Of a DNA stretch of 64,000 nt, positions 29,986-62,463 are shown piece by piece. The DNA comes from Tenrec ecaudatus (taxonomy: Eukaryota; Chordata; Mammalia; Afrosoricida; Tenrecidae). How positions within the stretch are numbered: the first letter of the stretch is position 1; each line of letters starts with the position of its first letter. The stretch is from NCBI RefSeq assembly GCF_050624435.1, contig NC_134531.1:251548812-251612811 (forward strand), given 5' to 3'. The position numbers and the translations under genes are program-made. Under the pieces are notes generated by a model. That model did not search any database. It saw only the letters and a program-made list of their open reading frames with translations, and had not been told where the DNA came from.

Positions 29986-32354
29986 CTACTCCTCTGTCAG
30001 TTTATCCTGCTGTGATGGCTTGTATGAGGCTGTGATACTGAAAGCTATGTCACTGGTATATCAGAAGCCAGCAGGGTTACCCAAAGTGAAGGGGTTTCAG
30101 CAGAGCTTCCACGTTAAGAGCAGATAGCCAAGAAGGACTCAGTTCCCCACTTTCGATGAAGAACCCACTGAAAAACGTATGCATAGCATGAAACATTTTC
30201 AGATACTAAAGGCCTAATGAATGGAATCAGAATATTGTGGCACACGGTGCCAAAGGAAGGCCCTCATCATGTGACTGAGGAGGAGCTGATTTCTCGGTGT
30301 GGAGTCAACCATGATGATGGAAGTCAGGTAGTGGTGTGGAAGTAGAGCCTTAGGTATCTTCGTTTATTGGTGGGGCATGACTCACAGGAAAGAGAAATAG
30401 CCACAATAACAGGCTAAAGATCAGAACTTGGAATGCACACAGTATAGATTTAGGAAAGTTAGAAGTGGTCAAGAATGAAATGAAAGACATAAAGATTGAT
30501 GTCCTAGGGACTTGGGAGCTGAAATGGACTGATATAGGCCATTTTGAATCAGAAAAATCACTTGATTTCCTATGTCTGGAATAATACAATCAAGTGGAAT
30601 GGCATGACATTCATTGTTAAAAAGGAGATTGCAAAATCAATCACGAATCCCAATGCTGTCTGTGATAGGATTATGTCTCTTTACCTTCAAGGAAATTCAA
30701 TCAATACAACTACTAGTTAAAGTTATGCAACAGCCACCAAAGCTAGTGATAAAGGAATTAAAAGTAAAATCAAATAAAAATGATTTTAAATTGAAGAATT
30801 CTACCAAGAACTTCAGTAGAAAATTGATCAAACATGCAATCAAAATGAATTGGTTAAAAAGAACACAAAATGGAATGCAGAATTTGAAAACAAACAGGGA
30901 AATGTGGACCTGGTGATAGAACCAAAGCTAGAGATTGTATGAGAGAAGTTGACAAACCAAAGACTCATTCACAACAAATACCTTTGTTCAGCAACATAAA
31001 AAGGGGCTATATGCATGGAATTCTCCAGTTGGAATACACAGAAATCAAATTAAAACCATTTGTGGGAAGACATGCTGAAGAAGCTTAATATCACCTGCTA
31101 AAACCAGGCTAGGGGCTGACTGGGGAGCAGACTATCAATAGCTCACTTTTTGTAAATTCAGAATAAAGCTGAAGAAAATGAAAACAAGTCCAAAATATGA
31201 GCTTGAGTCTCTCTCCAACTGAATTTCAAGAACATATCAAGAACAGCTTTGATGTATTGAACACTAATGACCTGATGATCTGTGGGAGAGCATCAAGAAT
31301 ATCATTTATGTTGAAAGCAAAGGTAACTAAAAAGACAAGAAAGGAAAGATCAAAGTGGATGTCAGAAGAGACTTTGAAACTTGCTTTTAATCAAAAGGTA
31401 CCAAAAGCAAATGGAAGAAAGGATGAAGTCAGAGTTGAAAAGAAAATTTTCAAGGGCAGCTTGAGAAGAGAAAGCCAATTTATAACAAAATATTCAAAGA
31501 CTTAGAATTAGAAAACTAAAGGGGGAAAACACACTCAGAACATCTGAAACTGAAACAACTGAATAAAAATAAAATCAACTCTCAGGGGTGTGAGGGGCGA
31601 GGCTGGGAGAGTGGAGGGTGAGTGGGTTGGAAAGGGGGAACTGATTAAAAGGATCCACATGTGATCTCCTTCCTGGGAGGTGGACGGCACAGAAGGTGGG
31701 GGAGGGAAACTCCGGATCGGGCAAGATATGACAAAATAACAATCTGTGGATTATCAAGGGTTCATGCAGGAGGGGGGAGGGGGGAGCGGGGATGGGGGGG
31801 AGAGGACCTGATGCAGAGGGCTTAAGTGGAGAGCAAATGCTATGAGAGTGATTAGGGCAAAGAATGTACGGATGTGCTTTATACAATTGAAGTATGTATA
31901 TGTGTGGATTGAGATAAGAGTTGTATGACCCCCTAATAAAATGTAAAAAAAGAAAAGAAAAAAAAGAAAGAAAATGATTAGGGCAAAGAATGTACAGATA
32001 TGCTTTATACAATTGATGTATGTATATGCGTGGATTGTGATAAGAATTATATGAGCCCCTAATAAAATGTTTTTTTAAAGCAGAAAAAAGAGAAAAAATC
32101 AACTCTCAAATTGAAAAATTGAAAGATTCTATGTGCAAATGATTGAATGATGAAGGAAACATCAAAAAAGATGTACTGTACCAAAAAAGACCCAGTCGGC
32201 ATTCCACCATTTCAAGAGGTAGCATATAAGCAAGAACCAATGATGCTGAAAGGACTATTGTGAGGATGGTACAGGACCAGGCAATGTTTCCTTCTGTGGG
32301 ACATATGGTTGCTATGAATTGGAACTGATTCGACGGCACCCGGCAGCAACAACG
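29986..32354 (+). mobile_element. RTE LINE, 5' end to 3' end, lacking the RT core
   Basis: Covers the 5' leader ('ctgtcagtttatcctgctg'), the endonuclease region (about 30420-30960, e.g. 'gatgtcctagggacttggg') and the linker up to 'atgatgctgaaa' at about 32252. Then it jumps to the last 100 bases and ends 'gacggcacccggcagcaac'. The reverse transcriptase is deleted and the rest carries many stops and shifts. An L1 tail is inserted at 31585-32094. Confidence 0.85.
31585..32094 (+). mobile_element. LINE-1-type 3' end with doubled terminal unit, nested in RTE
   Basis: A perfect 14-base duplication, aaaatcaactctca, sits at 31571-31584 and 32095-32108 inside the RTE. The last ~97 bases are present twice, 31848-31944 and 31974-32070, each ending 'cctaataaaatgt', separated by an A/G-rich spacer. 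Purine tract at 31770-31803. Confidence 0.85.
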
Positions 32355-32539
32355 CTGGTTTTGCTTCTCTAGAGAACCCAGCATATGATAGCTGCAGGCC
32401 CTTTAAATCTCATCTCTTGGTGTGCTCTAACCTCTAGGAGATTTCTAACTAGAAAGATATTCATGTTGTTCAGACACATAGGATCTGGGAGATGGTACAA
32501 ATGTAAACTATTTTTAAAACTCTTTTTCCAATAACAATA

Positions 32540-32735
32540 ACAGAATTGTGAAGGGCTCAGTGGCTAATTAAAATATTGGTAATTAGAATCCAACTAGACT
32601 CTCTATGGAATAAAACTGTGGTGTCCTGGATGCGCAGGTTAAAAGCTGGAAAATTCTAGGGGATGGCGGAGTATTATGTTTCCTGTGGTTGTTCTGTGAC
32701 AAAAACAACTCAATAGCCCCTAACAACAAAGTGTA
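32540..32735 (+). mobile_element. AfroSINE, worn
   Basis: 'agggctcagtggctaatta' at the head and 'actcaatagcccctaacaac' at the tail follow the SINE layout; the middle is poorly matched. Confidence 0.45.
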
Positions 32736-33017
32736 GAAGCCATTCTAAATGATGCTCTCTCCATTGCTGTTGATTCTCTGATTTCAACAGCTACCACCAG
32801 GAGAATATCATGTTTCCTGATATTTTCTCCCATGCCCACCCTCTTTCCAGGATCCTAGACTTGCCTTCAGAGTAAAGCATCTACAAGAAATGGCTTTCCT
32901 ATGTTAATATGTCACCCTTATGATACACAGCATTATGCCAAGAATATCTCTTTATTTTCCTACTTTTTAATTATTGTAAATATATAGGTAATACAAAATT
33001 TTCTTTCTTTTTCTTTT
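32736..33017. other. nothing recognised
   Basis: No gene or repeat identified. Confidence 0.35.
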
Positions 33018-33440
33018 TTAGTTCAAGGATCATTTGTTGGCCTTTAGGAATGTTTTCCAGTCCAGTCTGTTGGGGCACCACGCTCTGGACCCAAAGTCCA
33101 CCTTCAGCATTCCCTGGAATCTTGCTGCTCCATTCTCTTGCTGCTCCGCTGCATTCTCCCAGTGCTTTGCCTCGGTGTGGTGGGATCAGATTGGGTGAAA
33201 TTCCCACACTGTGTCTCCGGTGCTGTCCCCCACAGGGTCATGGGTTGGTGAGGGGCGTCATGTCTCATAGTGGGGCTGGCCGTGTGGTCCTCTTTGTGGA
33301 CTGGCTGCTCTAGGTAATAAAACATTTCAACAAACATTTTTAGCATATACATAGCATTGAGATCAACTACATAATTATGTTGTGCTAACATGACCAATAC
33401 CCTTTGCCAAGTTTTCTGTCCCCTTTGCGGGGTGGGGTGC
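33018..33440 (-). mobile_element. L1-type upstream 3' region
   Basis: 'agttcaaggatcatttgttg', 'gtggtgggatcagattggg' and 'ggcgtcatgtctcatagtgg' match a block I associate with the part of the afrotherian L1 3' region upstream of the tails seen elsewhere. Sits just left of another L1 tail in the same direction. Confidence 0.5.
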
Positions 33441-33535
33441 AGGGATAGGCCTTAATGCTTTCTAAAAATTAGCAGACATTCACTCATTTGCCTGCCCTGT
33501 AACCCCAGTTAACCACCATTGAACTCTTTTATTTA

Positions 33536-33970
33536 AATCATTTTATTGGGAGCTCTTACAGCTCTTATCATAATCTATACATACATGCATGGTGTCGAGC
33601 ACATTTGTAAACATGTTACCTTTCATCATTTTCAAAACATTTTCTTTCTACTTGAGTCCTTGGTATCAGTTCATCGGCCCCTCCCCCTCCCTCTCTCATG
33701 AATCCTTGATAATTTATCTTTTTTTCACGTCTTGCACCAACCGCTGTCCACTATCTCCCTTCACCTACTTTTCTGTTGTTCATCCCCCTGAGAAGGGGTT
33801 TTATGTCGATCATTGTAATCGGTTCCCCCTTTCTCCGCCCACCTTACCCTTTCCCTCCTGATATTGCTACTCTCATTATTGGTCCTGAGGCGTTTAGCTG
33901 TCCTAGATCCCCTGTGTTGTGAGGCCTTTTCTATACCAGTGTACATCCTCTGGTCTAGCTACATTTGTGA
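33536..33970 (-). mobile_element. LINE-1-type 3' end, 5'-truncated
   Basis: 'aatcattttattgggagctc' to 'catcctctggtctagctac'. Complement of the purine tract at 33675-33700. Target duplication not found. Confidence 0.75.
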
Positions 33971-34051
33971 CTGGCTTTAGCTCAGTGGCTTCTTCGATCT
34001 TACTTGTCATAGTATTGAACACTTATCTCTGTATACTTGTGCCTTCTTTTG

Positions 34052-34290
34052 CTTTTGTTCGGTGCCATTGAGTCAGCTCTGACCTATGCATATAGTGATC
34101 CTATGCTCAAAAGGACAAAGCCCTGCCCAGCGCTTCACTGTCCTCACAATTGTTCCTGTGTGTGAGCCCATTAGTGCAGCCATTGTGTGACTCCATCTCA
34201 TTGAGGGCCTTCCTCTTTTCACTGCCCTTCTACTTTACAAAACAGGATGTCCTTCCCTCGGAACTGGTCTCTCCTTAATCTTAGTGAGGT
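34052..34290 (-). mobile_element. RTE LINE, 3' end
   Basis: 'cggtgccattgagtcagctc', 'ctgtcctcacaattgttcc' and 'atctcattgagggccttcc' are the reverse complement of the RTE terminal 240 bases. Confidence 0.8.
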
Positions 34291-35547
34291 TGTGCACTAT
34301 TTACCCTTCTGTAGTGTTTGATTAAATGTAGCCACTATCACTATTATTGGAAGACAAAAGAAAAGCTCATGGCCCTTTTTGATAAGTTGAAATGCTATGT
34401 TCAGAGTACAATAGACATACAACATTTGAAAATGAATCTGTTCAATTTATTATTTTATTTTGATTATAAAGCTTCCCAAAAGCAAAGGTTTCTCATGTTT
34501 GGAACAGAATATTTTCTGTCTTCCATTTTGTTTGTCGGCCTTAAATAGAGGGAGGGCCGGAGTGGAGAGCTATTGCCTTACATTTAACCGTCACAAAGTG
34601 TGTTTCTACTGATTCACAAATGTCATTCAGATTTTTGAGGGCTGTTGAGTTAAGAAAATATCAAGGTAGATTTTTCGGGAACTTGGTCACAGCAGGGTAT
34701 CACTTCATACCTGGTGTTTTGGAGGATGCGAGGCTCGGTCATTGATGGTCACGTTTTTGGTCTGGAAAAGCAATCCAATGAAATGCACTTAGTGACCTCT
34801 GCTCTGTTCCGAGCTTCATAGAGCTCACTTCTTTATGAAAGCAGTAAGTTTCAAGAAAGCACAAAGAAAAAAGAACGCAAACGAATTAAACTTCTTTAGG
34901 ATTCTAAGGCACACTTCTTTTCACTACATATTTTCCTTTCACCTTGACAAAACATTTGCCTACATGTAGCTCCATGATGCCCACTAAAATATTGACTTTT
35001 AGGAGGCTGAGCATCCTGTCTTTGATATTTTAGTGTCATAGTCTCAAACTCTTTTGATTGAATACCTTTATCAAGAAAAGTAATTGTTGAAAAACACACA
35101 TGCATTTGGTTTATTTATGAAGTATAGAAAAATATTAGTTTTAACATCCTGTGTAGTTTATAAAGTTTCATCCTGTACCTCACAGGGTATAAAGCACTGG
35201 CCGACGGTCCCGCTAGGAGCCCTTGCCCCCAGAAAATTTCTGTTAGCTTTTAAACGGCATCTTCTAACCTGCCATTCATCTCCCCTGCACAGACCGGTTT
35301 TCCCCACTTTCATCACATGAAAGGCATACTCGCAATAAAGGGAAACCCCCATGGCATTGTGTATCACTTGATTCTAGACATTGCGTTTCTCACAAATGGA
35401 ATGTTGGCGGCAACCTTGCAGTGACCGAGTAAGTCGATCAGCATCATGTTCCCAACAATATGTGCTCGCTTTATGTCCCCGTGCCACATCCTTGGTAATC
35501 CTCAGAATGTCCTACATGTTTTCATAATGCTATTTCATGCTTAATAG
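34291..35547. other. single-copy-looking DNA, no gene seen
   Basis: No repeat recognised. A G+C-richer patch at 35160-35345 has 'gggtataaagc' and later 'gcaataaag', but no coding frame or tail, so no call is made. Confidence 0.4.
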
Positions 35548-35740
35548 ACTACACACCCACTGCCTTTTATCAGTTTCAACTCACAACAACCCGATGTAGA
35601 ATTTCCCAGCCTGTAAATCTTTATGGGAGTGGACAACTCATCTTTCTTTCAACAGCTGCTGGGATGGGGCGGGGTTGCTTAAACTACCAGTCAAACTTAC
35701 GGTTGTCAGCCTAAAGCCTACCCCACGGTGCCACCAGGAT
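35548..35740 (-). mobile_element. AfroSINE
   Basis: 'caactcacaacaacccgatg', 'taaatctttatgggagtgg' and the head side 'ccccacggtgccaccagg'. Confidence 0.8.
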
Positions 35741-35924
35741 ACTGTAAATATAACTGTTATATGCTGTAAGAAACTGAAAAGGAAATAGTGCAATGCTCTG
35801 GACTAACTCACAATATTTGGGAAGCATGACTATATACTGAATCAATCTTTATCCAGGACAATTCCTAATTTCTGCACCAAATAAACGGACTTGTTTCAGT
35901 CTGCCCCCTTAACATTGCCACAGC

Positions 35925-36125
35925 ATTTTTGTTCATAAATTCTCTGCATGCTGACTCTTGGCAACTTCATGTCTGCCAAACAGAACTGTGCTCCTTGGGT
36001 TTCCAGGTTGTAACCACTGAGCATCACATAACCCAGGCTGTCTTCTAAGCCACATGAGGGTGGGTTTGAATGATCAATTTCTTGCCTAGAAGTGAAGCAC
36101 TTTACCATCTGTGTCACCCAGTAAC
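35925..36125 (-). mobile_element. AfroSINE
   Basis: 'gactcttggcaacttcatg', 'cagaactgtgctccttggg' and 'accatctgtgtcacccag' mark a reverse SINE of the second subfamily. Confidence 0.65.
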
Positions 36126-36248
36126 TTCTCTTCTGTCCCTGAGTTCTCCTACTTAGACTACTTTGAGAAGTTAGCGATCTATTCTGCATGTAGGGGAATA
36201 CCATGAGTCAGAAACAAAGTAGCATAATAGGATAGCCTTACCCCCAAA

Positions 36249-36425
36249 CAACACACACTGCCATCAAGCTGCTTTTGAGTCATAGCAACCTACCTCTATA
36301 GGGTTTCCAGGAACATAAATCTTCATAGGAGCAGACATTCTCATGTTCCCAGCAGATCAGCTGGTGGCTCTGAACCATCAGTGTCAGTAACAGCCCAACC
36401 CTAACCCATGGCACCACCAAGCCTC
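36249..36425 (-). mobile_element. AfroSINE carrying an L1 tail insertion point
   Basis: 'actgccatcaagctgctttt', 'catagcaacctacctctat' and the head side 'ccatggcaccaccaagcctc'. The neighbouring L1 tail landed at this head, duplicating part of it. Confidence 0.8.
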
Positions 36426-36432
36426 CTTTATT

Positions 36433-37368
36433 TTACCATTTTAAAAATCATTTTATTGGGGCCTTGTACAACTCTTATCACGATCCATGCATCCATCCAT
36501 CGTGTCAAGCACATTTGTACATATGTTGCCATCATCATTCTCAAAACATTTGCTTTCTGCTTGAGCCTTGGTATCAGCGCATTTTTCCACTCCCGCCCCG
36601 CTGCCCCTCCCTCATGAACCCTTGATAATTTATAAATTATTATTATTTTGTCATATCATACCCACACCCTTCACCCACTTTTCTGTTGTCCATCCCCCAG
36701 GAAGGAGATCACATGTAGATCCTTGTAATCAGTTCCCCCTTTTTACCCCACCCACCTTCCACCTTCCCGGTCGCCATTCTCTGGTCTTGAAGGGATCATC
36801 TGTTCTGGATTCCCTGTGTTTCAAGTTCCTATATGTACCAGAGCACATCCTCTGGTCTAGCCAGATTTGTAAGGTAGAATTGGGATCATGATAGGTGGGG
36901 GCTGGGGGCAAGTATTTAGGAACTAGAGGAGGGTTGTATGTTTCATCATTGCTACCCTGCAGACTGATTGGCTTGTCTCCTCCCTGCAACCCTTCTGTAA
37001 GGGGATGTCTACTTGCCTACAGATGGGTCTTGGGTCCCCAATTTGCAGTCCCTCTCATTCACAATGATGTGATTATTTGTTCTTTAATGCCTGATACCTG
37101 ATCCATTCTACACCTTGTGATCACACAGGCTGGTGTGCTTCTTCCATGTGGACTTTGTTGCTTCTGAGATAGATGGCCACCTGTTTATCTTCTAGCCTTT
37201 AAGACCCCAGATGCTATATCTTTTGATAGTCATGCTCCATCAGCTTTTGTCACCAATTTGCTTATGTGCCTGCTTTGTCTTTAGCAATCATGTCGGGAAG
37301 GTGAGTATCATGGAATGCTAGTTTAATAGGACAAAGTATTCTTGCATTGAGGAAGTACTTGAGTGGAG
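36433..37368 (-). mobile_element. LINE-1-type 3' end with 16-base target duplication
   Basis: The duplication ccaagcctccttwatt (one mismatch) lies at 36417-36432 and 37369-37384 and exactly brackets the copy. It runs from 'attttattggggccttg' to 'ggaagtacttgagtgg' in reverse orientation. This copy best shows that the family is a LINE mobilised by target-primed reverse transcription. Confidence 0.85.
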
Positions 37369-37619
37369 CCAAGCCTCCTTAATTATCTGCATTCTCCTCC
37401 TCAAAAGCTTTTCTCCCTTGATGTCTGCCTCAACCTGAGACCACTGGTCATGAGTTCTCAGACCCCTCCCAGCATAGAGTAAAGCCTTTGCTCAGCCACA
37501 TCTACATTGGGTTACCTTCAGCAAAGTTCTTTAACCTCCTGTTAATTAGATTCTAAAAGAAGATGCTTATAAAATAAGATAAGGTTTCTAATAGGAACCT
37601 TCTAGTCCATGTGGAACAG

Positions 37620-37802
37620 GACCCTTGGTGGTGTAGTGGTTATGAATTTGACTGCTGTTCCAAAGGTCCACAGTTTGAAACCCTGGAGGGAGGAAGAGGG
37701 TTTTCTACTCCCATAAACAAGCAGCCTCAGAAACTCCCAGGAGGCAGATCTATCCCTTACTAAGACTCACCATGAGCCAGCATCGACTCAATGGCAGCAA
37801 GA
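37620..37802 (+). mobile_element. AfroSINE
   Basis: 'cccttggtggtgtagtggtt' head (A box), 'tccacagtttgaaaccctgg' (B-box region) and the end 'catcgactcaatggcagc'. Confidence 0.85.
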
Positions 37803-37814
37803 TTACATGGGTCA

Positions 37815-38003
37815 CAACAATCATCCACAGAAGTGAAAAACAGGCAGACGCGCAACACGATGGATGGACATGGTGGCATTAGCTATAGGCTCAAACACAT
37901 CTCCTATGGGAAGGACGGTGCAGGAGAGGCGGTGTTTTGTTCTGTTATACATTCGGTTAATGTGAGTACAAGTAGATGTGACAGTACCTAGCAACAACAA
38001 TAA
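37815..38003 (+). mobile_element. RTE LINE, 3' end
   Basis: 'aggcagacgcgcaacacg', 'ggctcaaacacatctcc' and the terminus 'gtacctagcaacaacaat'. It directly follows the SINE tail. Confidence 0.7.
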
Positions 38004-38737
38004 AGTCCTTGTCATTGGTACCCCAATGGAAAGTCATTTGCAAATTCAAGGTAGCAGAGGTGCCATCCCACTGAGCCAGGGCGAAGATGATCAGTCCAAA
38101 AGCCACAGCTGCCAGGAAGGATCACAAAGAAATGTGCTGGCCTGATATCCCATCTGTCTGTCTTCTCCCAAAAGAGAACCCCGGGTTGATTCCAGGGGAA
38201 AAATATGGGTGTGCTAATGCAAAAATTGTTTTCCTCACCCTCCCTTGAGGAATCAGGGGCAGAAAATGAGTTGTAAGCAGAGGTTCTTCAGAGAGAACTT
38301 ACTCTCCTCTTTCACTTTCCCTACTTCTTACTTCTGATTGCCCAGAACTCGGATGTAACCACTGGCGCTTCAGTGGCCATTTTGCATCATCAGGAGTTAG
38401 GAGTTCTTGGAGCTAAGAGGGGCTGGGGGGGGGCAGCATTTTAGTGGCCTTATGGGACACTGATGCCATCGTGAAGAGACCAGACAGTCTAGGTGCCTGT
38501 CTGAATTTCTTCCGTACCCTCTACCTTTCAAAATAATACTTTTAGAGTTTTTATTGTAAGGAACCCAACCTACGCCCTACCCCTAACTGTTAAAATATGT
38601 ATTAATCCACTGAGTCAACAAAATAGTTGAGACTCACTTAGGTACTGGCGCCCTGATAAGAACTCGGGATAACAAGACACATCAGACTTCCTGCCTTTGA
38701 TACAACTCATGGGTGTCTGGGGAAGACAAGCGTACGT
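38004..38737. other. no gene seen
   Basis: No repeat or convincing coding frame. A G run lies at about 38425-38433. Confidence 0.4.
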
Positions 38738-38905
38738 TGAAATCCTCTCCCATTGACTCTATTCTGACTCACGGTGACCTGATGGAGAGTTTCCCAGACT
38801 GTAAATCTTCACGGGAGCAGGTAGCCTCATAGTTCTTCTGTGGAGCAGCTGTTGAGTTCAAACCTCCGACTTTCTGTTACCAAGACTCCTCACTTCAGTG
38901 CTACA
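38738..38905 (-). mobile_element. AfroSINE
   Basis: 'cattgactctattctgactc', 'gtaaatcttcacgggagcag' and 'tcaaacctccgactttctg'. Confidence 0.8.
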
Positions 38906-41367: not shown

Positions 41368-41379
41368 AAAAATCATTTT

Positions 41380-42306
41380 TGCATAAGCAAATGTGGTGAA
41401 GAAAGCTAATGGTGCCCAGCTATCAAAAGATAAAGTGCCTAAGGTCTTGAAGGCTCGAAGTTAAACAAGTGGCCATCTAGCAGAGAAGCAACAAACCCAC
41501 ATGGGAAAAACACACCAGCCTGTGCGATCATGAGGTGTTGATGTTATCAGGTAACAGGTATCAGAAGACCCGCCAAAACAAACAAACAAAAACTTGTTGC
41601 TGAGAATGAGGGGGGTCAGAGCATAGACCCAAAACCTATCTGTAGACAATGAGGCATAAACTCACAGAAGGATCCCAAGGAAGAGATGATTCAACCAGGG
41701 TGAGGTATAAAACCTATGAAACACACAATATTCCTTTGATTCCTTGAAGTTTCCTCACCCCCCCCCCCCTCACTATCATGACCCCAACCCTGCCTTTCAC
41801 TGCAGGATAGGACAGAACATGTACACAGGTACAGAAGAGCTCAGAACATTCTGGTCCCCATTATGTATGGAGGCAGAGGGAGTGGATTCCAGTCCCCTCA
41901 GCATCATGTCTTCGATGCCAGCAGCTGCCCATCCGCTGGTTCGATCCTCAAGCACTGGGACAAGGAAAGAAAAAAGAGCTCAGAACACATGGAATCCAAG
42001 TCAGATAAAAGCCTCAGGAACAGAGATAGAAGTAGCAATATCAGGAAGGTTGGGAGAGGAGGGGGAAAGAAACTCTGGGGGAGGGAAGACAGTGGTCGGT
42101 ATAACATGAAATTCATAACAATTTATAATTTATCAAGGGGTCACGAGGAAGGGAGAAAGGGTCAAAAAGAGGAGCTGATACCAAGGACTCAAATCAAATA
42201 TAAATATTTAGAAAATAATGATAGCAACATATGTACAAATATGCTTGATACAAGCAATGTATGCATTGTTATAAGAGCTGTAAGAGTCCCCAATAAAAAT
42301 ATCTTT
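41380..42306 (+). mobile_element. LINE-1-type 3' end, older subfamily
   Basis: Starts 'gcataagcaaatgtggtg' and ends 'agagtccccaataaaaatat'. A near-perfect 12-base duplication (aaaaatcatttt / aaaaattatttt) flanks it at 41368-41379 and 42307-42318. The end sequence differs from the main tails and is shared with the copy at 62578. It carries a 125-base foreign insert at 41849-41973. Confidence 0.75.
41849..41973 (+). mobile_element. 125-base insert of unknown origin in an L1 tail
   Basis: A perfect 14-base duplication, aagagctcagaaca, lies at 41835-41848 and 41974-41987. The insert ends 'caaggaaagaaaa', a short A-rich tail, so it looks like a LINE-mobilised RNA. It contains 'ctggttcgatcctc', which resembles a tRNA-type B box, but no tRNA fold or SINE family was recognised. 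Confidence 0.65.
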
Positions 42307-42318
42307 AAAAATTATTTT

Positions 42319-42657: not shown

Positions 42658-44042
42658 TGATGGGGACTTCAAAATGTTTGTGAAAAAATGAAATTAGAAG
42701 AATGGAATTAGAGGAAAAGCAACGGGACCAATAGTTCTGGGGAGATATGGAAGAGGGGCAGGTGGGAGAAAAGGTAGTGGTGTTAACAAACCCGGGGACA
42801 AGGGAAAAACAAGTGATTCAAATCTGTGGTGAGGAGGGTATAGGAGGCCTGGAAGGGCATGAGTAACGGTAATGTAACCAAGAGGAATTACTGAAACCCA
42901 AATGAAGACTGAGCATGAGTGGGACAAGAGGAAAGTCAAAGGAAACAGAGGAAAAAGCTAGGAAGCAAAGGGCATTTATAGAGGTCTAAATAAAAGCATG
43001 TGCATATGTAAATATATTTATATATGAGGATGTGCAATAAATTTATGTGCATATATTTATAGGTTTAGTATTAAGGTAGCAGGTGGACATTGGGCCTCCA
43101 TTCAAGTACTCCCTCAATGCAAAAATATTTTGTTCTATTAAACTGGCATTCTATGATGTTCACATTCCCAACACAATTGCTGAAGACAAAGCGAGTGCAT
43201 AAGCAAATGTGGGGAAGACAGCTAATGGTGCCCAGCTATCAAAAGATATAGTGTCTGGAGTCTTAAAGGCTTGAAGGTAAACAAGCGGCCATCTAGTTCA
43301 GAAGAAACAAAGCCCACATGGAAGAACACACCAGCCTGTGTGATCACGAGTGTTGAAGGCATCAAGTATCAGGCATCATCAGAACAAAAAATAATATCAT
43401 TGTGAAAAAGGAGGGAAGTGTGAAGTGGAGACCCAAAGCCCATTTGTAGGCCACTGGACATCCCCTTACAGAAGGTTCTTGGGGAGGAGATGAGCCAGTC
43501 ATGGTGTGATGTAGTAACAATGAAACATACAACTTTCCTCTAGTTCTTAAATGTTTCCTACCCCACCACTATCATGATCCTAATTCTACCTTACAAATCT
43601 GGCTAGATCAGAGGATGTATACTGGTACAGATAAGAACTGGAAACACAGCAAATCCAGGGTGGATAATTCCTTCAGGATCAGTGGTGTGAGTGACAATAC
43701 TGTGAAGGTGGAGGGGGAGGAGCAGTGGAAAGAGGGTACTGATTACAAGGATCTACATATAACCTTCTCCCTGGGGGGTGGACAACAGAAAAGTGGGTGA
43801 AGGGAGACATCGTACAGTGCAAAATATGATGAAATAATAATTTGTAAATTATCAAGGGTTCATGAGGGGAGGGGTTAGTGAGGAGGGAGGAGAAAAATGA
43901 GGAGCTGATGTCAGGGGCTTGGGTGGAGAGCAAATGTTTTGAGAATGATGAGGGCAATGAATGTACAGATGTGCTTTACACAATTGATGTTGCATGGAAT
44001 GTGATGGGAGTTGTATGAACCCCTAATAAAACAATTGAAAAG
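42658..44042 (+). mobile_element. LINE-1-type 3' end, longest copy (~1.4 kb)
   Basis: Extends furthest 5' of all copies: 'gatggggacttcaaaatg', then 'gggaccaatagttctggg', the 'ttcaagtactccctcaatgc' block, the gene-like 'cacaccagcctgtgtgatc' block, purine tract at 43862-43890, and the end 'cccctaataaaacaattg'. It can serve as reference for the family. No open frame of ORF2 is included. Confidence 0.8.
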
Positions 44043-45564
44043 AAAACAGAATCATCCCAGACATGTTGAAGTCCCTTGATGTGATACATTGGTCAACATG
44101 AATATGATAACATGAAATATTATGACAGAAAGCATGAGATGTAGAAGTCAGAAGAGATTATTACCCAAAGGGCATTGTAGCTCAAGTTCCCCATTGAACA
44201 GCAAGATGAGGATTAATTGCTCACGTAGAATTTGCCTCCAAAAGAGAGACATAAAGAAACAGAGACAATGACTGAGACAGATCTAGAAAAACAGAGAGTG
44301 AGAGTGAGAGAGAGCTCTTTACTCTGTAGTATTAACCACATTTTCTCAGAAGAATAGGGGGAACAATTTCTATCCTGGAATGTAAGTAAAGGTTTGTGGA
44401 GATATGTTGCACATATTTCTCTTTCAGATCATGATTATTATTTCTTTAAAAACCTATGTAGACATGTGAAAATATTCATAGGGAATTGCCTTTCAATGAA
44501 AAGATATGCATATATTTTCTGTAGATAATGTAGAATATAAGACCAGAATCCACGTTTTCAACTGAAGTTGAAAATTCAGGAATTTTCGCAAATTCTGTGA
44601 GCTAATCTGGAAGTGGTCACATCTCTATTCATCTTCAGCAAAGTTCCACTCCTTACACTTCAGATTCTGTATCAAGGCATTGGAATAGCCCGTTATTTGG
44701 CATTTCTGGATTCAATGAGACCTAAAAATGAAATTGACTTCTCTGTTTCTAGTGCTACTTTCATTTTCCAAGTCTCCATTTCCTGACCTTTCAGGAAATC
44801 TCTGTCAGTTTCCATAGTATTTCAACCACTTTCAGGTATCAAAAATTCAGTCCAATGTCATCACTTCCTACTTGAGCCTCTGCTCTTGAACACCTTCTCC
44901 CCCCCTTTTTGGAGCCCTTTCTCCTTTGACAGTCTAAGAGTAGAAAGGAAAAATGCACATCAGTTAGCAAAATTTTGCTATTTCTCCCTTGTTGCCATGA
45001 TTCACCCAGTGAGATGCTCTCTATTTAATCTCTTGTGGTCAGTTCACCATAAATCAGGAAGGACTTGGTGGCTGTGAGATTAGGTTTGAATAATCAAGTA
45101 TGTAGCTTCTTTACAGGATCCTTCCAGGGGCTTCTAACAGCATATTTCTACCTAGAAATATCTCTTTCAGCTTTGTATTTTAAACCCCCATCAGTTCCCT
45201 TCCACAATAATCCAACCCACAATCACTTGCTTCTGGAATTACCTTGCCTAGTCAAGTCTACATGAAAAGCACTAGAAGTTCAATATACTTTTTCAATTCC
45301 CGTTCCCTCCCTAGATTCTGCCCTGTTTCTCTAGTGCCCCTTTCCCCGTGCTGGATTAGACACGTGGGGCAGTGCAGCAATTTACCAAATCCCCATTGCG
45401 GCTCACTCCTCTGGTCTCTAGGGGTGCTTCTTTTGGATCCCTTGAATCACAGCGACAAGCACTAATCTAGTATCTTTGTGGTAGAAAGGAAAAAGACACA
45501 GATCTCTCTGCTGAGACTCCACTCATCCTCAAATTTCTTGATTCTTCCGCTTATATAGACTTGT
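44043..45564. other. single-copy-looking DNA, no gene seen
   Basis: No repeat family recognised; a short (GA)n-rich patch lies at 44290-44318. No reading frame is convincing. Confidence 0.4.
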
Positions 45565-49237: not shown

Positions 49238-49619
49238 CGAATAGGGCAAGATATGACAAAATAACGATGTATAAATTACCAAGGGCACATGAGGGAGGGG
49301 GGAGCGGGGAGGGAGGGGGAAAAAAAAGAGGACCTGATGCAAAGGGCTTAATTGGAGAGCAAATGCTTTGAGAATGATTGGGGCAGGGAATGTATGGGTG
49401 TGCTTTATACAATTGATGTATGTATATGTATGGATTGTGATAAGAGTGGTATGAGTCCCTAATAAAATGTAAAAAAGAAAAGAGAAAGAAAAAGAAAATG
49501 ATTAGGGCAAAGACTGTACAGATGTGCTTTATACAATTGATGTATGTATATGTATGGACTGTGATAAGAGTTGTATGAGCCCCTAATAAATTGTTTAAAA
49601 AAGAAAAAAGAAAAAAAAC
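49238..49619 (+). mobile_element. LINE-1-type 3' end with doubled terminal unit
   Basis: Starts 'gaatagggcaagatatgac'; purine tract 49291-49327. The terminal unit is present at 49374-49470 and again at 49498-49594, each ending in AATAAA-type sequence, with an A/G-rich spacer. Shares this with the copies at 31585 and 61714. Confidence 0.85.
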
Positions 49620-53735: not shown

Positions 53736-54045
53736 GTGTTGTCACTGTTACTACTTTTCTATCAGTCAGATTTCTGTGGGATATGATGGGATTTCTTTAG
53801 AACTTGAAGTGTCTTTGATCCCAGACCATAACTGAGAGCTTATGTCTCATAGTGGGTGAAGACTGTTTATTAGAAAGACTCATCTCAGGTTATCAATCGT
53901 GTGTAATCAATGTCATGGTATTTATCAACATTAAGAGAGAAAGGGCAGAATTTGACCTCCATAATGAGACACTCCCCCCATAACAGCTCTGAATAGGGAA
54001 GCCCCATTGGTTGGGAAAAGGCATTGGCACGTGTAGAGGTCAAAG
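53736..54045. other. nothing recognised
   Basis: No repeat or gene identified. Confidence 0.35.
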
Positions 54046-54218
54046 AAAAAACTCCCAATATGCTCTCCAGTTGATTCTGATTCATAGACTTCCTGGGGCA
54101 GTAAATCAATATAGGAGCAGAAAGGCTCTCTTCCTCGCTCAGAACCACTGGTGGGTTTCAACCTCTGACCTTGTGGTTAAGCAGTCCACAGCTTACCCAA
54201 CAATGCCACCAGAGCTCC
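54046..54218 (-). mobile_element. AfroSINE
   Basis: 'ccagttgattctgattcata', 'aatcaatataggagcag' and 'aatgccaccagagctcc'. Confidence 0.8.
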
Positions 54219-54615
54219 AATCTATGGAAAGTAACACATCCTTTGGATGATATTGAAGCCCTACATCAGGAAGCTTCCCAGTCTTCACACTGTGTTACTC
54301 TTCATTTTTATCCCTTTCACTACAAAAAAACTGAAATCATAACTATAATGCTTTCCATTGTTCTATGAATTAGTCTAAGAAATTATCAAACCTGATGAAG
54401 AATTGAGAGCCGTGCAGGTTATAAGGACCTGAGAGCTCTGGGGACCCCTATAGTTATGGCTAGAACCATGAGATGGTAGTGGGTACACCGAAAATTTGTA
54501 GCCAGCACACCAGAAGTGATGAGTCATGGGGATTCCAAGTTTGAGACTGGCATATGAAGTATTGGCTGACTTGACACTCCCGAAGACTGTGCCTTTTAAG
54601 TTGCTCTGTCTCCAA
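54219..54615. other. nothing recognised
   Basis: No repeat or gene identified. Confidence 0.35.
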
Positions 54616-54834
54616 AACCCAAAATTAAGTTCATTGGCATCAAGTCAATGCCAACTGATAGTGACTGGTAACGACCCTGTAGGGCAGGGGGAAACTGCCC
54701 CTGGTGCTAAGACTGTAACTCTTGACTGGCGTAGAAAGCCCCAACAGTCTCCCTCCGAGTGGCTGGTGGTTTCAGACTAGTTTTGAACTGCTGACCTTGT
54801 AGTTAGCAACCCAACACATAACCACTGTGCCACA
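54616..54834 (-). mobile_element. AfroSINE
   Basis: 'ttggcatcaagtcaatgcc', 'acgaccctgtagggcagg', 'gaactgctgaccttgtagtt' and 'aaccactgtgccaca'; full length. Confidence 0.85.
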
Positions 54835-55739
54835 TGAAGAAATATTACGTGTGCAGGTGACATCAGTACAGAAAACAGATGATATGTGAATTGTATGCCA
54901 ATAAAACTGTGAGCTTTGTGGGGGAGAACAGAAGAGAGAGAGAACCAAAATTGAGATTGCATTTATTTGATGAATCTATTGTCAGGGAAGTGAGAATTGG
55001 AATTTGATTTTTCTCCTGAGATTTGGAGCCAATGCTAACACAACTATTAAATTGATAACAATTTACTTAACATTTTTGTGTATACAATTTCTGCATCTTT
55101 AAACATGCTACCAATAAAATACACGTTTTACTATTTTAGAATATATGTGAGAGGAGAGTCTAGGATCTTCAGGGTAGGAATCATTTACTGAGTCAACTAT
55201 TTAGGAAACAAACAATTTGAAAATCAGAGGAATATATTAACATAAAATGAATTAATTACCAGAACCAACCCAACAAAAATTGGGAGATGTAAGTAGTCAT
55301 AAAGACAACTTCAGGTTTTGCCCCAGTTCATCTGATGTGTCAGGGGAAGAATATGAGCTACAAAATATTGTGGCTGAATGACTACTAATTTCTGGCCTAG
55401 ATATCATCCTGTATTTGCCATTCCATTTTCTCAAAGCAGGGAAAGATGGGGCACAAGCTCTTGCCCATAATAAAGAATCCAAAGCAAATGATAGGAAGTA
55501 CTGCCTCATTTTTAGAGAATATACCTAGATTGTTAATATCCTGAAGCTAAGCTGGAATTTCAGATCAAATGTATAAAAATTTAAATGGGTTTAAAAGAAA
55601 AATTTTACATTTGTAATAAGGAAAATGCTAAAATAAATAAGGAAAGTGCTAAAATAAATAAGGAATAAACAAATAAACAAGGAATGTATTTCGCAAAGAT
55701 GAAATGGAGATTAAGTTCTAGGAACCAGGGCATTTCCAT
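54835..55739. other. no gene; short A+T-rich tandem repeats
   Basis: At about 55615-55690 the unit 'aataaggaaaatgctaaaat' and variants repeat two to three times. Nothing else recognised. Confidence 0.45.
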
Positions 55740-55932
55740 AAAGAGTCCTGGTGGCATTGTGGGTTAGGCATTGGCTGTTAACCACCAGGTCAGTGGTTCA
55801 AACCTGTTAGTCACTCCTTTCTTGAGAGGTTCACTAATTCAGTAGAGATTCGCAGTCTTAGAAAAACCCCATACAGGTTAGGTAAGAGTCCAGCCTTGAC
55901 TCTTGACGGTAGAGCAGTGGGTTTGGTTTGAG
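55740..55932 (+). mobile_element. AfroSINE
   Basis: 'agagtcctggtggcattgtg' (A-box side), 'gtcagtggttcaaacctg' (B box) and the end 'gacggtagagcagtggg'. Confidence 0.8.
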
Positions 55933-56263
55933 TTTCGGTTTATCATGATGGGAAAATCGGCGACAGATATTGATGATGAATGGCCATCTTCACTGAATTG
56001 TACTCATGGAAAATGCCAAATGGACAAATATTGTGTCATATATTTAGTACAATAAAAACCATATTTGAGTAGTACTTTTAAAGTATGTCTTTAAATAATG
56101 CCTGTCTGTAAATAAATGATATATGTCCAGTTAAATGATTATTCCTCATATTTTGCATTATTTATTCATTCTTTTCATCTCTCCAGTGGCATTACACTTG
56201 ATTCCACACCACCAGTCTATGGAGGTCTTCCATGGAAAGATGAGTTGGAATGCCACAGCACGT
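55933..56263. other. nothing recognised
   Basis: No repeat or gene identified. Confidence 0.35.
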
Positions 56264-57770
56264 AGTTGTTGTTGCTAAGTGCTGTCAGTTCTGTTCTGAT
56301 TCATAGTGACACTGTTCACAGAGGAATGAAACTCTGCCTAGTCTTGCACCATCCTTGTCGGGCTAGCCCCGTGTTGCAGCCATTGTGCCCATTCATGTCA
56401 TCAAGGATTGTTTTTTGCTGCCCTTCCACTCTACTAAGTGTAAGGTTGAGAGAAGACTCAATTCAATCACAAGACTAGGTGGGTTACAAACAGCAAAGGT
56501 TATTTCTTGCCTGTGTGCAGATGGAGCAAGGCAAAACAGTGCATCAACATGCATCAGCCGTGAGCTCTGGGACTAGTGCTTTTATACACTGTACAGAATG
56601 GGGAATGGGCTTGGCCCCTCTGAGGTGGAAAATACATGCTGAAGTCTTCTTAATTGATTTGCATCAGGAAAGTTCCAGGAATCATTTTCAGTCTTTGTTC
56701 TGGTTCGCTGATTTCTTTGTGGTTGTCAATGTCCTTGGTTCACTGGTTTTTGACAAAGGCCCATTCTTTCCTGTTTGTACAGAACAGGACCACCCCTGGA
56801 GCAGAACTTTATAGGGTGTGCTCCGTGGCAAACATGCAGGAACTTGGGTTCTTAGCAAACTCTATTAAGTCTTACACCAAGCATGATGTCCTTCTACAAG
56901 GTCTGGTCTCTTCTGAAAATATGTCCAGAATTTATGATGCACAGTCTCACCATCTTCACTTCCAAGGAACATTCTGGCTGTGTTCCTGTTTGTTCTGTCT
57001 GGCAGCCCATGGTATTTTCAATATTCTTCATCAGTACCCTAATTCAAATGCATGGATTCCTCTTCAGTCTTCCTTGTCCAATTTCCAACTTCACAGGCAT
57101 AAGGAGGTTGTGGGTCTCACCATGACTTGGATCAGACCCACCTTAGTCCTCAATGGGACATCCTTGTTTGTTCTTCAACACTTTAAAGAGAGTTTGTGCA
57201 ACAGATTTGTCCCCTACAATTTGTAATCTGATTTCTAGATTGCCACTTCCATGATCTTGGTTTTCTTTATACTGAATTGCAATGCATACCTAAGGCTCTG
57301 TCCTTGATTTTCATCAAGTGCTTGGTATCCTCCTTGCTCTCAACAAGCAAGGTTGTGTCCTCTTCATATTACAAATCGTTAATAAATCTTCTTCCAATAC
57401 TGGTGCCCTATTCTTCATCTAGCCCAGTTTCTTATGTAATCCTCTCAGACTACAGATTGAACAAGTATGGTAACAGGATGTCATCTTGAAGCACAGCTTT
57501 CCTAATGTTGATCCTCACAGTAGTTTCATCTTCTGGTTAAATGACTGCCTCTTGACCCATGTACAGGTCCACATGAGTATAATGAAGTGTTGGAATTCTT
57601 ATTCTTCTCAATACTATCAATAATTTCTTATGATCTACACAGTTGAGTGTCTTGGTATATATAGTTGATAGAAGGCATGTAAGCATCATTCTGGTCTCCT
57701 CTGTTTTGAGCCCAGATCCATTTGACAAGCACATTGACAGGCAAGTGATGGACACAGCATGTAGATAGCA
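56264..57770 (-). mobile_element. RTE LINE, 3' half, split by an LTR
   Basis: Left end 'tagttgttgttgctaagtgc' is the complement of the RTE terminus. At the right the translation reads YTKTLNCVDHKKLLIVLRR and HVDLYMGQEAVI, matching RT motif A and beyond (YAKAFDCVDHNKLW in related RTEs). The LTR at 56439-56876 interrupts the 3' region. Frame decayed. Confidence 0.85.
56439..56876 (-). mobile_element. LTR of a second family, nested in an RTE LINE
   Basis: Ends are TGTAAG...CTTACA, a perfect 6-base inverted repeat with TG/CA termini. Target repeat ctaag / ccaag at 56434-56438 and 56877-56881. On the minus strand 'gtataaaagcac' is a TATA region and 'caagaaataacc' a likely polyadenylation region. 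Unrelated in sequence to the other LTRs; class unclear, perhaps class II-like. LTR only. Confidence 0.7.
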
Positions 57771-58134
57771 TCAGAACCCTAGTTACAATTCCAAAATGGT
57801 CCTGTTCTTGGCATCCTAAGTACCTCCCCCTCAACTCTTAGAAACCCAAGGTGTTGAGAAAATCATTCTCTAGGATTTATAATGTTCAATGCCACCTTTC
57901 TTTCTGTGGCCCAGCAAACATGATCTTTCCTTCAATGTTACTACTGTAGGTTAGTTGTTCATAAGACGTGTATCCCAAACTATGGTTAGGAATCCTATCC
58001 AGTTCTCTGTTGATCTGAGTAGCCTTGGACAAGATGTATAATCTCTAGAAAGACCCTTTTTTTTTTTCATCCATATACTAAGGATAATTTACTCAAATAG
58101 TAAGATTGTTTAAGAAACCCTGAAAACAGCAGCA
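57771..58134. other. nothing recognised
   Basis: The left part may be decayed RTE sequence; otherwise no repeat or gene. Confidence 0.3.
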
Positions 58135-58322
58135 ATTAAGCATTCGGCTGCTCGCCAAAATGTCAGCTGTGGGAACAGACCAGCCTCTCTGCCGGAGAAA
58201 GAGTGGCCCTTGTTTCCTTAATGATGACAGCCTTCGAAACCCGATGGGGCAAATCGACTCCATCACAGAGGGTCTCTATCAATCACGGTCCACTCAGTGG
58301 GTTACTGGCTTAGAGGTAGGGG
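58135..58322 (+). mobile_element. AfroSINE
   Basis: 'aagcattcggctgctcgcc' (A-box side), 'atgatgacagccttcgaaac', 'gatggggcaaatcgactcc'. The end is worn. Confidence 0.7.
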
Positions 58323-58559
58323 AGGCAGGAGGTTGGTTCTGAAAATTAGACAAGATGGGACCAGGAGGATCCTTAGCTGGTTCACACAAAAAAAGGTCTT
58401 TTAAATTCTGAAATGCACTATTTAAAATATTTTTACTGAATCATAAGTAAGAATATTGACTAGGCTTAAACTTTCAGGGTGTGGTTGAACTTTAAAACTT
58501 GAGTCTTTCAGCCTAACTAGTATCTTTTCGATGGAAAAATAATAACAACAAACATTTAT

Positions 58560-58735
58560 GATGTGATTTTTATATGACATACAATAACCTGAAATGCTTT
58601 ATTGAACTTTGAAACAACTCTAAGCAGGAAAGCATGAGATCCATTTTACTGAAACACAGGCAAGTTAACTAAATTGCTCGAGTCCATATATGTAACAAGT
58701 ACCAGAGCTTGGCTTTAAATACAAATACTCTAGCA
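58560..58735 (-). mobile_element. MIR SINE remnant
   Basis: 'ccattttactgaaacacagg', 'aagttaactaaattgctcg' and 'gtaccagagcttggcttt' match the reverse complement of MIR. Ancient mammalian element. Confidence 0.65.
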
Positions 58736-60405
58736 TCAATTTCGCATCCCCCTTTTATATTCTTTCTTTTAACCCCCTCAGAAGCATTCACTAGCAATTT
58801 GCATCCCAGAATCAATAGCTGCTGATGCTAAAAGAAAATTTCAGGGTAGGAAGACCACATGTGGAATCAAAGGGAGATTGACCAAAAGCGAAAGGCAAGG
58901 GCCACAACTATCAGCTTCATTTTCACTTTGGGGACACTTTGTTGTCATCAGAAAGATCATGAGAACCAAAGGCAGAACTAAACCAGTGGCTTTCAATTTG
59001 TAAAAACAGATAACAACAATTAAACGTTGACTTAAATTTTCCAAACTGAGTTTTCTTGGCCAGATTAATCACAAACCAGTAAACTATACCCCATTTGCCA
59101 ATGACACTTCACCACTGAATTAACAATTAAGGACACAAGGTCCCTGTCCCTGCCCTGTTTCCACACTTTGTTCCAAAAAGATGGAAGTGGGAAATGTCTG
59201 AGGGAGATGCATGTTCTGTTGAGAAAAAGCAATGAGAGTAATAAATCTCAAAGCCTAGTAGGAAAGGGGATTGTGTTTGTACATGAAAGGCACAGCAGAG
59301 GTGTGCCTTTATTAAAGATATTAAAACATATATATCTTATACCAACCCCTAAACTAGCTCACATAGTGAATGGGTAGCCAAAGACAGTCATTTTGTACTG
59401 GGAGGAGTACCTACCTGTCCGTCACTGCCCCTTTGGGTGTGCAGTGATGATCTCTAAAGGAAGCAAGATGCCCTGGAGCCCACACATGCCCATCCCTTCT
59501 TTATCACTTACTAGCACCTCTCAAGCCACCCCTGGCAGAAAAGTTGGAAGTTTCCCAATCCTTGGTTCCCTGGCTGGTTTTGCTGCCCCATACTCAGTGC
59601 TCTTTCCTGGTTTCTAAGTCAGGACTGTCTACCCTGACTCAGTGGGGTTGGCCCTACCACATGCATCCAGTTCCTCTTGCTTGAAAACAGTCTCACCTAA
59701 TCAGTTCCATGTCCTAGACCTTCTGCCCCAAAGAAAACCATTTTGTACCTGCCGTTGGAGGAGGCGGGCTCCTTGCAGAGAGCCAGAGCAGAACACACCA
59801 GGGAGTGCGGCAGGGAGTCCAGGGCTTTCCTGCATTCAGCAGGCATCAAACTTCCACGTATTCTGCCTCCCTTTGCTGGCATCAGTTCTATGCAGGTCCC
59901 AGAGCCCTTCTCCCCTCACTGAGAGGTGATAGAAGCCACCCTCTAAATCCCCCGAGTCCCTGGGCAGGCCCCCAAAACAGGAAGTAGTCTTGCTGGCCTG
60001 AATCCAGTGGGAGAAGTCAGAGACTTGGTCTTGGAAGCCACTGTCTTTTGCATGGCATGAGGTTTTTGTGAGCATGTGCACACCATTTCTTCTTTTGCCA
60101 TGCAGACAGTGGAGTCAGGGCATTTTTCTACAAGAAACAGTCGCCCTCTGCTCCCCCAGTAAGGACTGTCTGTAACCTTAAGCCCAGCAGAGGCACTTCA
60201 GGAGGACAAGAACCTCACCACAATAACGGATATGGCCCCAGGGTAGACAAAATAGAAAGTGGGCATACCGGTAAAGACTTCCCCAAATTCAATTTGAGCC
60301 CCAGAAGGGGAGGGCAGTGTCTATTAAGTCTATTTTCCAGACTTAAAATACCAATTTATCCCTCCACACATACTGATCCCACCTGCCCTTCCTTTGCTTC
60401 CTTGG
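58736..60405. other. longest repeat-free block, right part G+C-richer
   Basis: No repeat was recognised in 1.67 kb. 59390-60400 is richer in G+C than the rest of the window. No open frame there looks convincingly coding and no splice pattern was settled. In such a repeat-dense window the lack of insertions may hint at constraint. Confidence 0.4.
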
Positions 60406-60520
60406 GTGCCGGAAGATGAGCTACTCTGGTAAGCAGGCACTCAAAATATAAGAAAGGCAGAGAAAGCCTCTCAAAGGAGAGTCGACCATAATAACTTGAG
60501 TGGTGTAAAACTTTAGGGGC

Positions 60521-60956
60521 TGTGATTGTTAGGTTTAGTGTGCCAATCTGCCCAGTAAGAACATGTGGGACTGATCAGGTTGCAGTTTGATTGTAGGGTA
60601 AGGAAATAAATGGTTCTGCAAGGCCCGCTCCCCACCCCCTCTTGTCTTGCTCTCTGGTGATCAGAATGTGTTGAAGTGTGCTAATGTTTTAGCTAGCTCT
60701 CTGCCTCCACCTGTGAGCTACAATACCTGTGGGCCAAGCTAATATGGATTGTGTCACTAGAGCTTGAGGCTCCTTCGAGACCTGCTTGAGCTTGAGGCTG
60801 GTGGTGCCTGTTGCCTTGCATTGCTTGCATTTGATATCCCATCTGGGTCTGCTTTGCTAAGCTCCCAAGCTATTGACTGTTGGTGAACCATTCTATGGCT
60901 TGCTGCTTGCCTTACCCAATGGAGGACTCTGCTATCTGCTTCCTTGGTTTTGGACA
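60521..60956 (+). mobile_element. LTR fragment nested in an RTE LINE
   Basis: Starts 'tgtgattgttaggtttag' with 'aaggaaataaatggttctgc' (TATA region) and 'agaacatgtgggactgatc' as in the LTR at 5698, in sense orientation. The 3' end is missing. It sits at the point where RTE sequence is also lost, so part of the target was deleted. Confidence 0.6.
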
Positions 60957-61713
60957 GAGCAGCACCAGTCACCAATGCTAGTAATGAAGAAATTGAAGAA
61001 TTCTACCAACTCCTACAGTCTAAAATTGATCAAATATATCATCAAGATGCCTTGACAATTGTTGGCGATTATGCAAAAGTTGGAAATGAAGAGGAAGAAA
61101 TCATGGAAAATATGGCCTTAGTCGTAGAAACGTAGCTGTATACCACGTGAGAGAATGGTATAAGACCAACAACTTCAAATCATGAACAGTCTTTTTGAAC
61201 AACATAAATGGTGACTATATAATGATCTCGTCCAGATGAAATATACTTAAATCAAACTGACTACATCTGTGGGAGGGATTGAGGGAGAGAAACATCAACC
61301 AGAAAGAGGCCAGGGCTGACTGTGGACAGACCATCAACTGCTCATAAGTTCAGGTGAAAGTTGAAGAAAATTAAAGCCAGTCCATGAGAGCCAAAATATG
61401 ACCTTCAGTATATGTCACCTGATTGGAAAACATGTCAAGAATACCTTTGCCCCAGTGACAGAGCATCAGTGACAGAAGACCTGATGAGCTGTGAGATGAC
61501 AATGGGAAGAATATACACGAGGAAAGCAAAAGATCAGTGAGAAGACGAGATGAAAAATCAAAAGGGATGTCAGAAGAGGCTCGCTCTGGATCATAGAATG
61601 GCTAAGGTCAATGAAAGAATGATGACGTAAAAGAGCTGAAAGAAAATTTCAAAGAGGAGCTCAAGATGACAAAATATTCTAAGGAAATATGCAAAGACCT
61701 GGATTAGAAAACT

Positions 61714-62463
61714 AAGTGGAGACCCAAGGCCCAAGTGTCGGCCAATGGAGATCCCCTCATAGAGGGGCTTAGGAGAGGAGATGGGTTAACTAGGGTGTGA
61801 GGTAGTATCGATGAAGAACACAGCTTTCCCCCAGATCCTGGATGCTTCCTCCCCCCAACTACCATGATCCGAATTCTACCTTGCAGGGCTGGATAGGACA
61901 GAGGCTGTACACTGGTACATATGAGGGTTGGAGGTACAGGGAATCCAGGGTGGATGATACCTTCAGGACCAAGGGCGTGAGGGACGATGCTGGGAGAGTG
62001 GAGGGTGAGTGGGTTGGAAAGGGGGAACTGATTACAAGGACCCACATGTGACCTCTTCCCTGGGAGAGGGACATTAGAGAAGGGGGGAAGGGAGACCCCG
62101 AATAGGGCAAGATATGACAAAATAACGAGGTATAAATTACCAAGGGCATATGAGGGAGGGGGGAAAGGGGAGGGAGGGGGGAAAAAAAAGAGGACCTGAT
62201 GCAAGGGGCTTAAGTGGAGAGCAAATGCCTTGAGAATGATTGGGGCAGGGAATGTATGGATGTGCTTTATACAATTGATGTATGTATATGTATGGATTGT
62301 GGTAAGAGTTGTTGGAGTCCCTAATAAAATGTAAAAGAAGAAAAGAGAAAAAAATGATTAGGGCAAAGACTGTACAGATGTGCTTTATACAATTGATGTA
62401 TGTATATGTATGAACTGTGAAAAGAATTGTATCAGCCCCAATAAATTGTTAAAAAAAAAAAAA
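61714..62463 (+). mobile_element. LINE-1-type 3' end with doubled terminal unit, nested in RTE
   Basis: Longest copy of the doubled-tail subfamily, from 'agtggagacccaaggcc'. Terminal units at 62236-62330 and 62354-62450, then an A run. 'aaaactaa' flanks it as a short possible target duplication (about 61709-61715 and 62460-62467). Confidence 0.85.

Follow-up and report, generated by a model that had tools for sequence, protein, structure and literature searches.

A retroposon family of Tenrec ecaudatus with a doubled 3' end, probably gained by tail capture

Dimeric short interspersed elements (SINEs) such as Alu consist of two related monomers joined by an A-rich linker. Here we describe a retroposon family of Tenrec ecaudatus whose terminal unit of about 97 nt is present twice; the A-rich linker recalls that of the dimeric SINEs, but the repeated unit is a tail with a polyadenylation signal rather than a promoter-bearing monomer. 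The family was studied from a 64,000-nt stretch of DNA (assembly GCF_050624435.1, contig NC_134531.1, positions 251,548,812 to 251,612,811 of the forward strand), referred to below as the window. The doubled end is a variant of 3' transduction, which has been described for L1 and SVA as proceeding through a weak signal (PMC9311842). In the tenrec family, as in the cases described there, read-through would have brought downstream sequence along, and this sequence labels the descendants of a single source. In contrast to those cases, what is transduced here is a terminal unit of the same family, complete with a signal; of the youngest-lineage copies sampled (the best 40 of 996 candidates) 38 carry it, stacked to as many as three units. 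We consider that the family, which appears to be mobilised by L1-type machinery, gained its doubled end by the capture of a relative's tail, and we put the probability of this reading at about 0.58.

Other described systems resemble this one in part. The chimeric insertions of long interspersed element 1 (LINE-1) reported in PMC13174262 share with it a composite insertion, a target-site duplication, a TT/AAAA-type site and poly(A); in the chimeras presented there another RNA is joined upstream of the LINE-1 segment, whereas here two ends of the same family are stacked and have founded a large lineage. The monomer arrays of mouse and horse L1 (PMC5872511, PMC9022269) are likewise tandem units of an untranslated region (UTR) whose number varies between families, but they lie at the 5' end and the present units at the 3' end. 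Diversification of L1 is often told in terms of 5'UTR replacement (PMC13174262, PMC5872511). In the tenrec family it is the 3' end that has apparently been replaced, by capture of a relative's tail, a change carried by the same 38 of the best 40 youngest-lineage copies. No description of a doubled LINE 3' end was found in the literature searched by title and start of abstract, a search that most subscription journals lie outside.

Three 5'-truncated copies on the forward strand of the window carry the doubled terminus. The first-pass annotation had described them from the letters of the DNA; the doubling is real and the coordinates given were correct to within two bases. Copy D1 (31585-32094) has its first unit at 31848-31944, an A/G-rich spacer that looks like a former tail at 31945-31973, and its second unit at 31974-32070, each unit having an AATAAA. 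Its direct copies span 31844-31944 and 31970-32070 and are 90% alike. D1 is flanked on both sides by 14-nt direct repeats, at 31571-31584 (AAAATCAACTCTCA) and 32095-32108, and since this target-site duplication encloses the whole copy, both of its units must have arrived together. In copy D2 (49238-49619; units at 49374-49470 and 49498-49594) the direct copies, 49370-49493 and 49494-49617, are 84% alike, and no target-site duplication of at least 8 nt was found in the flanks. Copy D3, of the youngest sampled lineage, has units at 62236-62332 and 62354-62449 and direct copies at 62235-62351 and 62353-62469 that are 77% alike; its limits (61716-62459) are set only by an 8-nt flanking repeat, AAAACTAA, at 61708 and 62460. 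Tandem Repeats Finder reported periods of 124 for D2 and 118 for D3, and for D1 it listed the spacer only.

The other tails of the family in the window have one unit, as had been noted. The two D1 units and the D1 and D3 elements were compared with the window by BLAST and the tails were read out, which gave ten further, older copies, each with a single unit. These lie on the forward strand at 874-967 (copy 353-965), 6759-6852, 42210-42300, 43943-44033 (copy 42966-44051) and 62758-62850, and on the reverse strand at 23568-23649, 25020-25113, 28029-28123, 33537-33630 and 36447-36540. A 6-nt expansion is common to all six units of D1, D2 and D3 and absent from all ten single units. Because it is present in all six, both units of the doubled copies can be assigned to the same young lineage.

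To extend these observations beyond the window, the same genome (3.92 Gb) was searched with the D1 first unit, with the D3 body upstream of the tail and with the D1 body. The best 40 of 2,468, 996 and 3,484 candidates, respectively, were scored. Each sample leans towards its own query; both body queries end before the tail and are thus blind to tail structure. The D1-first-unit sample held 26 two-unit copies, nine one-unit copies ending in the spacer and five one-unit copies ending in TGTT. The D3-body sample held 35 two-unit copies, three with three units and two spacer-ended one-unit copies, and the D1-body sample 23 two-unit, six spacer-ended and ten TGTT-ended copies, together with one that is cut before the unit (L107). 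Labels were finished by hand for L023, L101 and L120 (TGTT-ended) and for L024 and L025 (spacer-ended). With three copies found in two samples, there are 117 distinct places, 116 of them with a unit: 81 with two units, three with three, 17 spacer-ended and 15 TGTT-ended. The second unit of L058, a two-unit copy, breaks off at position 78 and has no signal. Over 3,275 nt L053 does not differ from L054, and either of the two may have arisen by segmental duplication or in assembly. On a loose pattern for the 6-nt expansion, 110 of 116 first units and 75 of 84 second units pass, and the six first units that fail look by eye like point variants.

Exact patterns of 20-26 nt from the unit starts and spacer were also counted across the genome, the matches being taken in bulk. 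The 20-mer across the second-unit joint occurs 9,338 times, the D1-type first-unit start 4,558 times, the D1-type first-unit end with spacer 1,072 times and one form of the older single-unit start 32,270 times. The reversed control of each counted pattern gave no match in the genome, so the counts for the doubled-unit patterns are not due to chance. Exact motif scans of viral and genome contig collections gave no matches.

The structure of the doubled copies points to a doubling that arose in a source element and then spread. The second unit starts at the identical base in 84 of 84 doubled copies, after the A/G-rich spacer. When D2 is included (85 doubled copies), mean identity is 0.926 between first units and 0.934 between second units, as against 0.884 between first and second units, whether within a copy or between copies. 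Since the joint is shared and units resemble most closely those at the same position in other copies, we conclude, in agreement with the first-pass annotation, that the doubling was present in the source. The window on its own could be taken to favour independent local duplications in each copy, because the D1 units are 89% alike while the D1 first unit is 87-88% identical to the other first units; for D1 the comparison is a near tie (89% within the copy, 87-92% between copies). In the larger sample that explanation is refuted. Greater likeness within copies than between them, the result that would have told against a shared source, was not seen in any of the 85 copies, none of which has its own two units as alike as the best same-position partner, and the identical joint is equally at odds with separate events. 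The spacer does look like a former tail, as had been suggested: the one-unit copy L093, which sits near the base of the tree described below, ends in the same TGTAAAAAA-GAAAAG tail.

Among first units, 81 of 84 have an AATAAA within their final 16 nt, as do 81 of 84 second units and 30 of 32 single units, in line with the earlier description of a signal at the end of each unit. In the D3-body sample 38 of the 40 copies run past the first signal and two end in the spacer; six of 40 end in the spacer in the D1-body sample. Spacer-ended copies could have arisen either because the first AATAAA was used or because priming took place in the A-rich spacer. With one-, two- and three-unit ends coexisting in one genome, the use of the first against the second signal can be read from the insertions. 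The 5' end was in hand for 56 of the 80 copies with long enough loci. Target-site duplications of at least 10 nt were found in 26 of these 56, compared with 55 of 3,080 mispaired flanks. In 24 of the 26 the duplication has A as its first base, indicating a TT/AAAA-type site, and 22 of these copies are doubled (L053 and L054 both counted). Sequence beyond the first tail is therefore shared by unlinked copies and enclosed in their target-site duplications, which is the pattern that identifies 3' transduction.

We propose that a source copy already bearing the 6-nt expansion entered a resident copy at an A-rich endonuclease site immediately upstream of the resident's terminal unit of about 97 nt, which would set the source tail and the resident unit in tandem. 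Transcription of the source would then have passed its own poly(A) signal and ended at that of the resident, as in 3' transduction, and the two-unit transcript, when retrotransposed, would have founded the lineage. A similar event may have occurred again and given the three-unit sublineage. The origin of the founder by tail capture and the read-through are both what we infer. The landing of the source before the resident's last unit is suggested because the start of the second unit in the doubled lineage coincides, exactly or to within a few bases, with the place at which younger copies have entered older ones.

Such insertions were sought in the downstream flanks of the 116 copies, which were compared with older 3' regions. 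Nineteen flanks were homologous, and those in sense orientation and at most 40 nt from the last unit were kept by hand, giving nine rows and eight events (L021, L029, L030, L053/L054, L055, L076, L098 and L100). Antisense cases (L007, L031, L040, L052, L085 and L086) and those further off (L047, L072, L078 and L114) were left out. In three of the eight events the join falls on the unit start or only a few bases away. The duplication of L029, 17 of 18 nt and one or two bases at most from the unit start, was read by hand, the automated scoring having given 5 nt from a misplaced 5' end. L098 is joined at the exact unit-start base and L055 within a few bases; on the 5' side a simple insertion was not confirmed for L098, the left flank of which is another old tail, or for L055, where the 5' end was not reached. 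L098 was accordingly rejected as a clean replica of the founding event and counts as a join only. L021 and L053/L054 join at an A-rich site about 20 nt upstream of the unit start, and L053/L054, being one identical 3,275-nt stretch at that site, was rejected as a unit-start join. A further case, L162, was met by accident upstream of L055 and outside the 116-flank set; it is a piece of doubled tail of about 140 nt at the exact unit-start base, with a 15-nt duplication, AAAATGATGATGGCA. The chance of finding three of eight events at the unit start is 7e-5 if all positions are equal, 0.002 over AAA sites and 0.04 over AAAA sites. Across the genome a run of eight A residues leads into the older unit start at 33 places, against one for a point 8 nt further on, a control site that is not itself A-rich.

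The origin first put forward for the doubled end is less favoured. In it a 5'-truncated copy of very short length would have entered the A-rich tail of a source element, with read-through afterwards. Read-through is retained in the scheme above, while the short insertion seems to us unlikely. Insertions of this size do exist, as L162 demonstrates, seven of the 56 copies with a 5' end in hand begin at most 120 nt from the first unit, and the A-rich spacer would be a plausible target. The model should nevertheless produce a random truncation point, and the joint lies at or next to the place where younger copies are known to have entered older ones. This same coincidence, with an old-copy insertion site that bears target-site duplications, would be left unexplained by template switching, in which the reverse transcriptase would copy about 97 nt of one RNA, jump to the A-tail of a second family RNA and generate a chimera that then spreads. 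Template switching and RNA ligation have been proposed for LINE-1 chimeras (PMC13174262), and a jump to a poly(A) tail should need little homology where, as here, the joint adjoins A residues; on balance we regard this route as unlikely. Tandem duplication at the DNA level inside a source copy, by slippage or unequal exchange, is less probable still. That local duplications occur in the family is evident from a second internal duplication in the same 3' region, but the units are parted by an A/G-rich, tail-like spacer, and the one-unit copy L093 ends in the same tail as that spacer.

The capture of tails seems to have happened at least twice, since three-unit copies are found in different flanks. 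In L048, L049 and L059 a third unit follows a shared 12-nt piece, GATAGGAAGCAT, and an A-run, and the flanks of the three differ. The exact three-unit spacer occurs at three places in the genome, L059 and two new ones, and the spacer or a close variant of it at five loci or more. Elsewhere, two exact copies of the first-unit end with spacer stand 113 nt apart at C1:30406623/30406736 and at C1:224947770/224947883; these pairs are perhaps more extra-unit arrays, of a kind other than the GATAGGAAGCAT lineage.

More tentatively, an endonuclease target just before the terminal unit might draw new copies into old ones and so lead to repeated tail capture, and the stacked, UGUA-bearing ends might have favoured RNA completion and spread in the youngest lineage. 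In such a self-targeting 3'-end ratchet the 5'UTR replacement of L1 would have its mirror image. The mean number of UGUA motifs is 3.89 in first or only units (116 units), 4.30 in second units (84) and 2.80 in the ten older units, against 0.95 in shuffled first units and 0.63 in shuffled older units. UGUAN is tabulated as an upstream element in PMC9311842. Any benefit from stacked ends is hypothetical. The suggestion that a doubled 3' end aids recognition by the reverse transcriptase found no support: seven units were folded, the z-scores (-1.82 to 0.02) are not exceptional, and a conserved fold as a handle for the enzyme was rejected.

Several observations weigh against the reading proposed here. 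A founder or source locus with the second unit as its native flank was not found among the loci read, and the same arrangement would result if the enzyme switched templates between two RNAs. The test for a hot spot was made post hoc on few events, and L098, one of its three cases, misfits a simple insertion. In the region 40-100 nt before the signal, UGUA averages 2.76 at the first and 2.45 at the second signal (78 copies each), so doubling does not raise the local density and the extra motifs lie only further upstream. The single monophyletic two-unit group expected from the first-pass annotation is not what the tree returned. In this tree, built from body and first unit for 106 copies (ten short-bodied copies having been dropped), the two-unit label changes 25 times, compared with a shuffled mean of 30.7, and values as low were reached in 10 of 500 shuffles. 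The well-supported branches alone force five label changes, no unit class forms one clade, and 57 of 106 inner branches are left open by low support. Finally, the 15 TGTT-ended one-unit copies among the 116 could be a surviving single-unit lineage or later losses. The one-unit copies L093, L098 and L092 branch first, with weak support, and the D3 lineage falls in a clade of 41 rows (100/97) without any TGTT-ended copy. We read the tree as an early doubling after which one-unit copies were produced repeatedly.

With respect to the kind of element, LINEs of the RTE/BovB type end in short repeats rather than in a signal and poly(A). No such end was found in this family, which has instead a poly(A) signal and an A-rich tail at its 3' end, as in L1. 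The tails, signals and target-site duplications are of L1 type, as in PMC13174262, and L1 has been described in Afrotheria (PMC1764860); a single match, with three mismatches, to the head of an afrotherian SINE points to a host in that group. The tails, signals and duplications speak to the machinery rather than to membership of L1, and the original assignment to L1 stands in that respect only. As to L1 coding, no convincing open reading frame (ORF) for ORF1 or ORF2 was seen by eye in three-frame translations of about 2 kb of shared upstream sequence, for which no family search was made. This stretch may be part of a long L1 3'UTR, or the family may be a non-autonomous passenger. A fragment at 33018-33174 of the window (reverse strand) is homologous to a stretch about 2 kb upstream of the family end (L046 and L162).

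The second internal duplication mentioned above is a direct one of about 90-240 nt, spaced about 245-250 nt, which lies further upstream in the 3' region and is common to unlinked copies. In the window it is seen on the reverse strand at 25400-26100 and 28400-29100 (copies S25 and S28), and also in L041-L046 among themselves. Copies L001, L006 and L007 share one start point, which lies 265 nt upstream of the first unit, and L009 begins 6 nt off; two of the three have target-site duplications of 12-14 nt. This common start perhaps reflects a preferred short RNA form.

Among the other features of the window, an older repeat ends just upstream of both D1 (30788-31519) and D3 (60990-61715). The two stretches are 65% alike and look like an RTE/BovB reading frame. 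An RPS20 frame of 119 uninterrupted codons at 4962-5321, followed by an AATAAA and an A-run, is a processed copy of this ribosomal protein gene; when six ORFs of the window were searched with Pfam, the S10/S20 ribosomal domain in this copy was the only domain found. Inside an old copy of the doubled-end family, an A-rich-ended stretch between 13-nt direct repeats (41836-41848 and 41975-41987) overlaps a SNORA57 match (Rfam, 41789-41965). It looks like a retrocopy of a small nucleolar RNA, although the first repeat begins 47 nt into the Rfam match.

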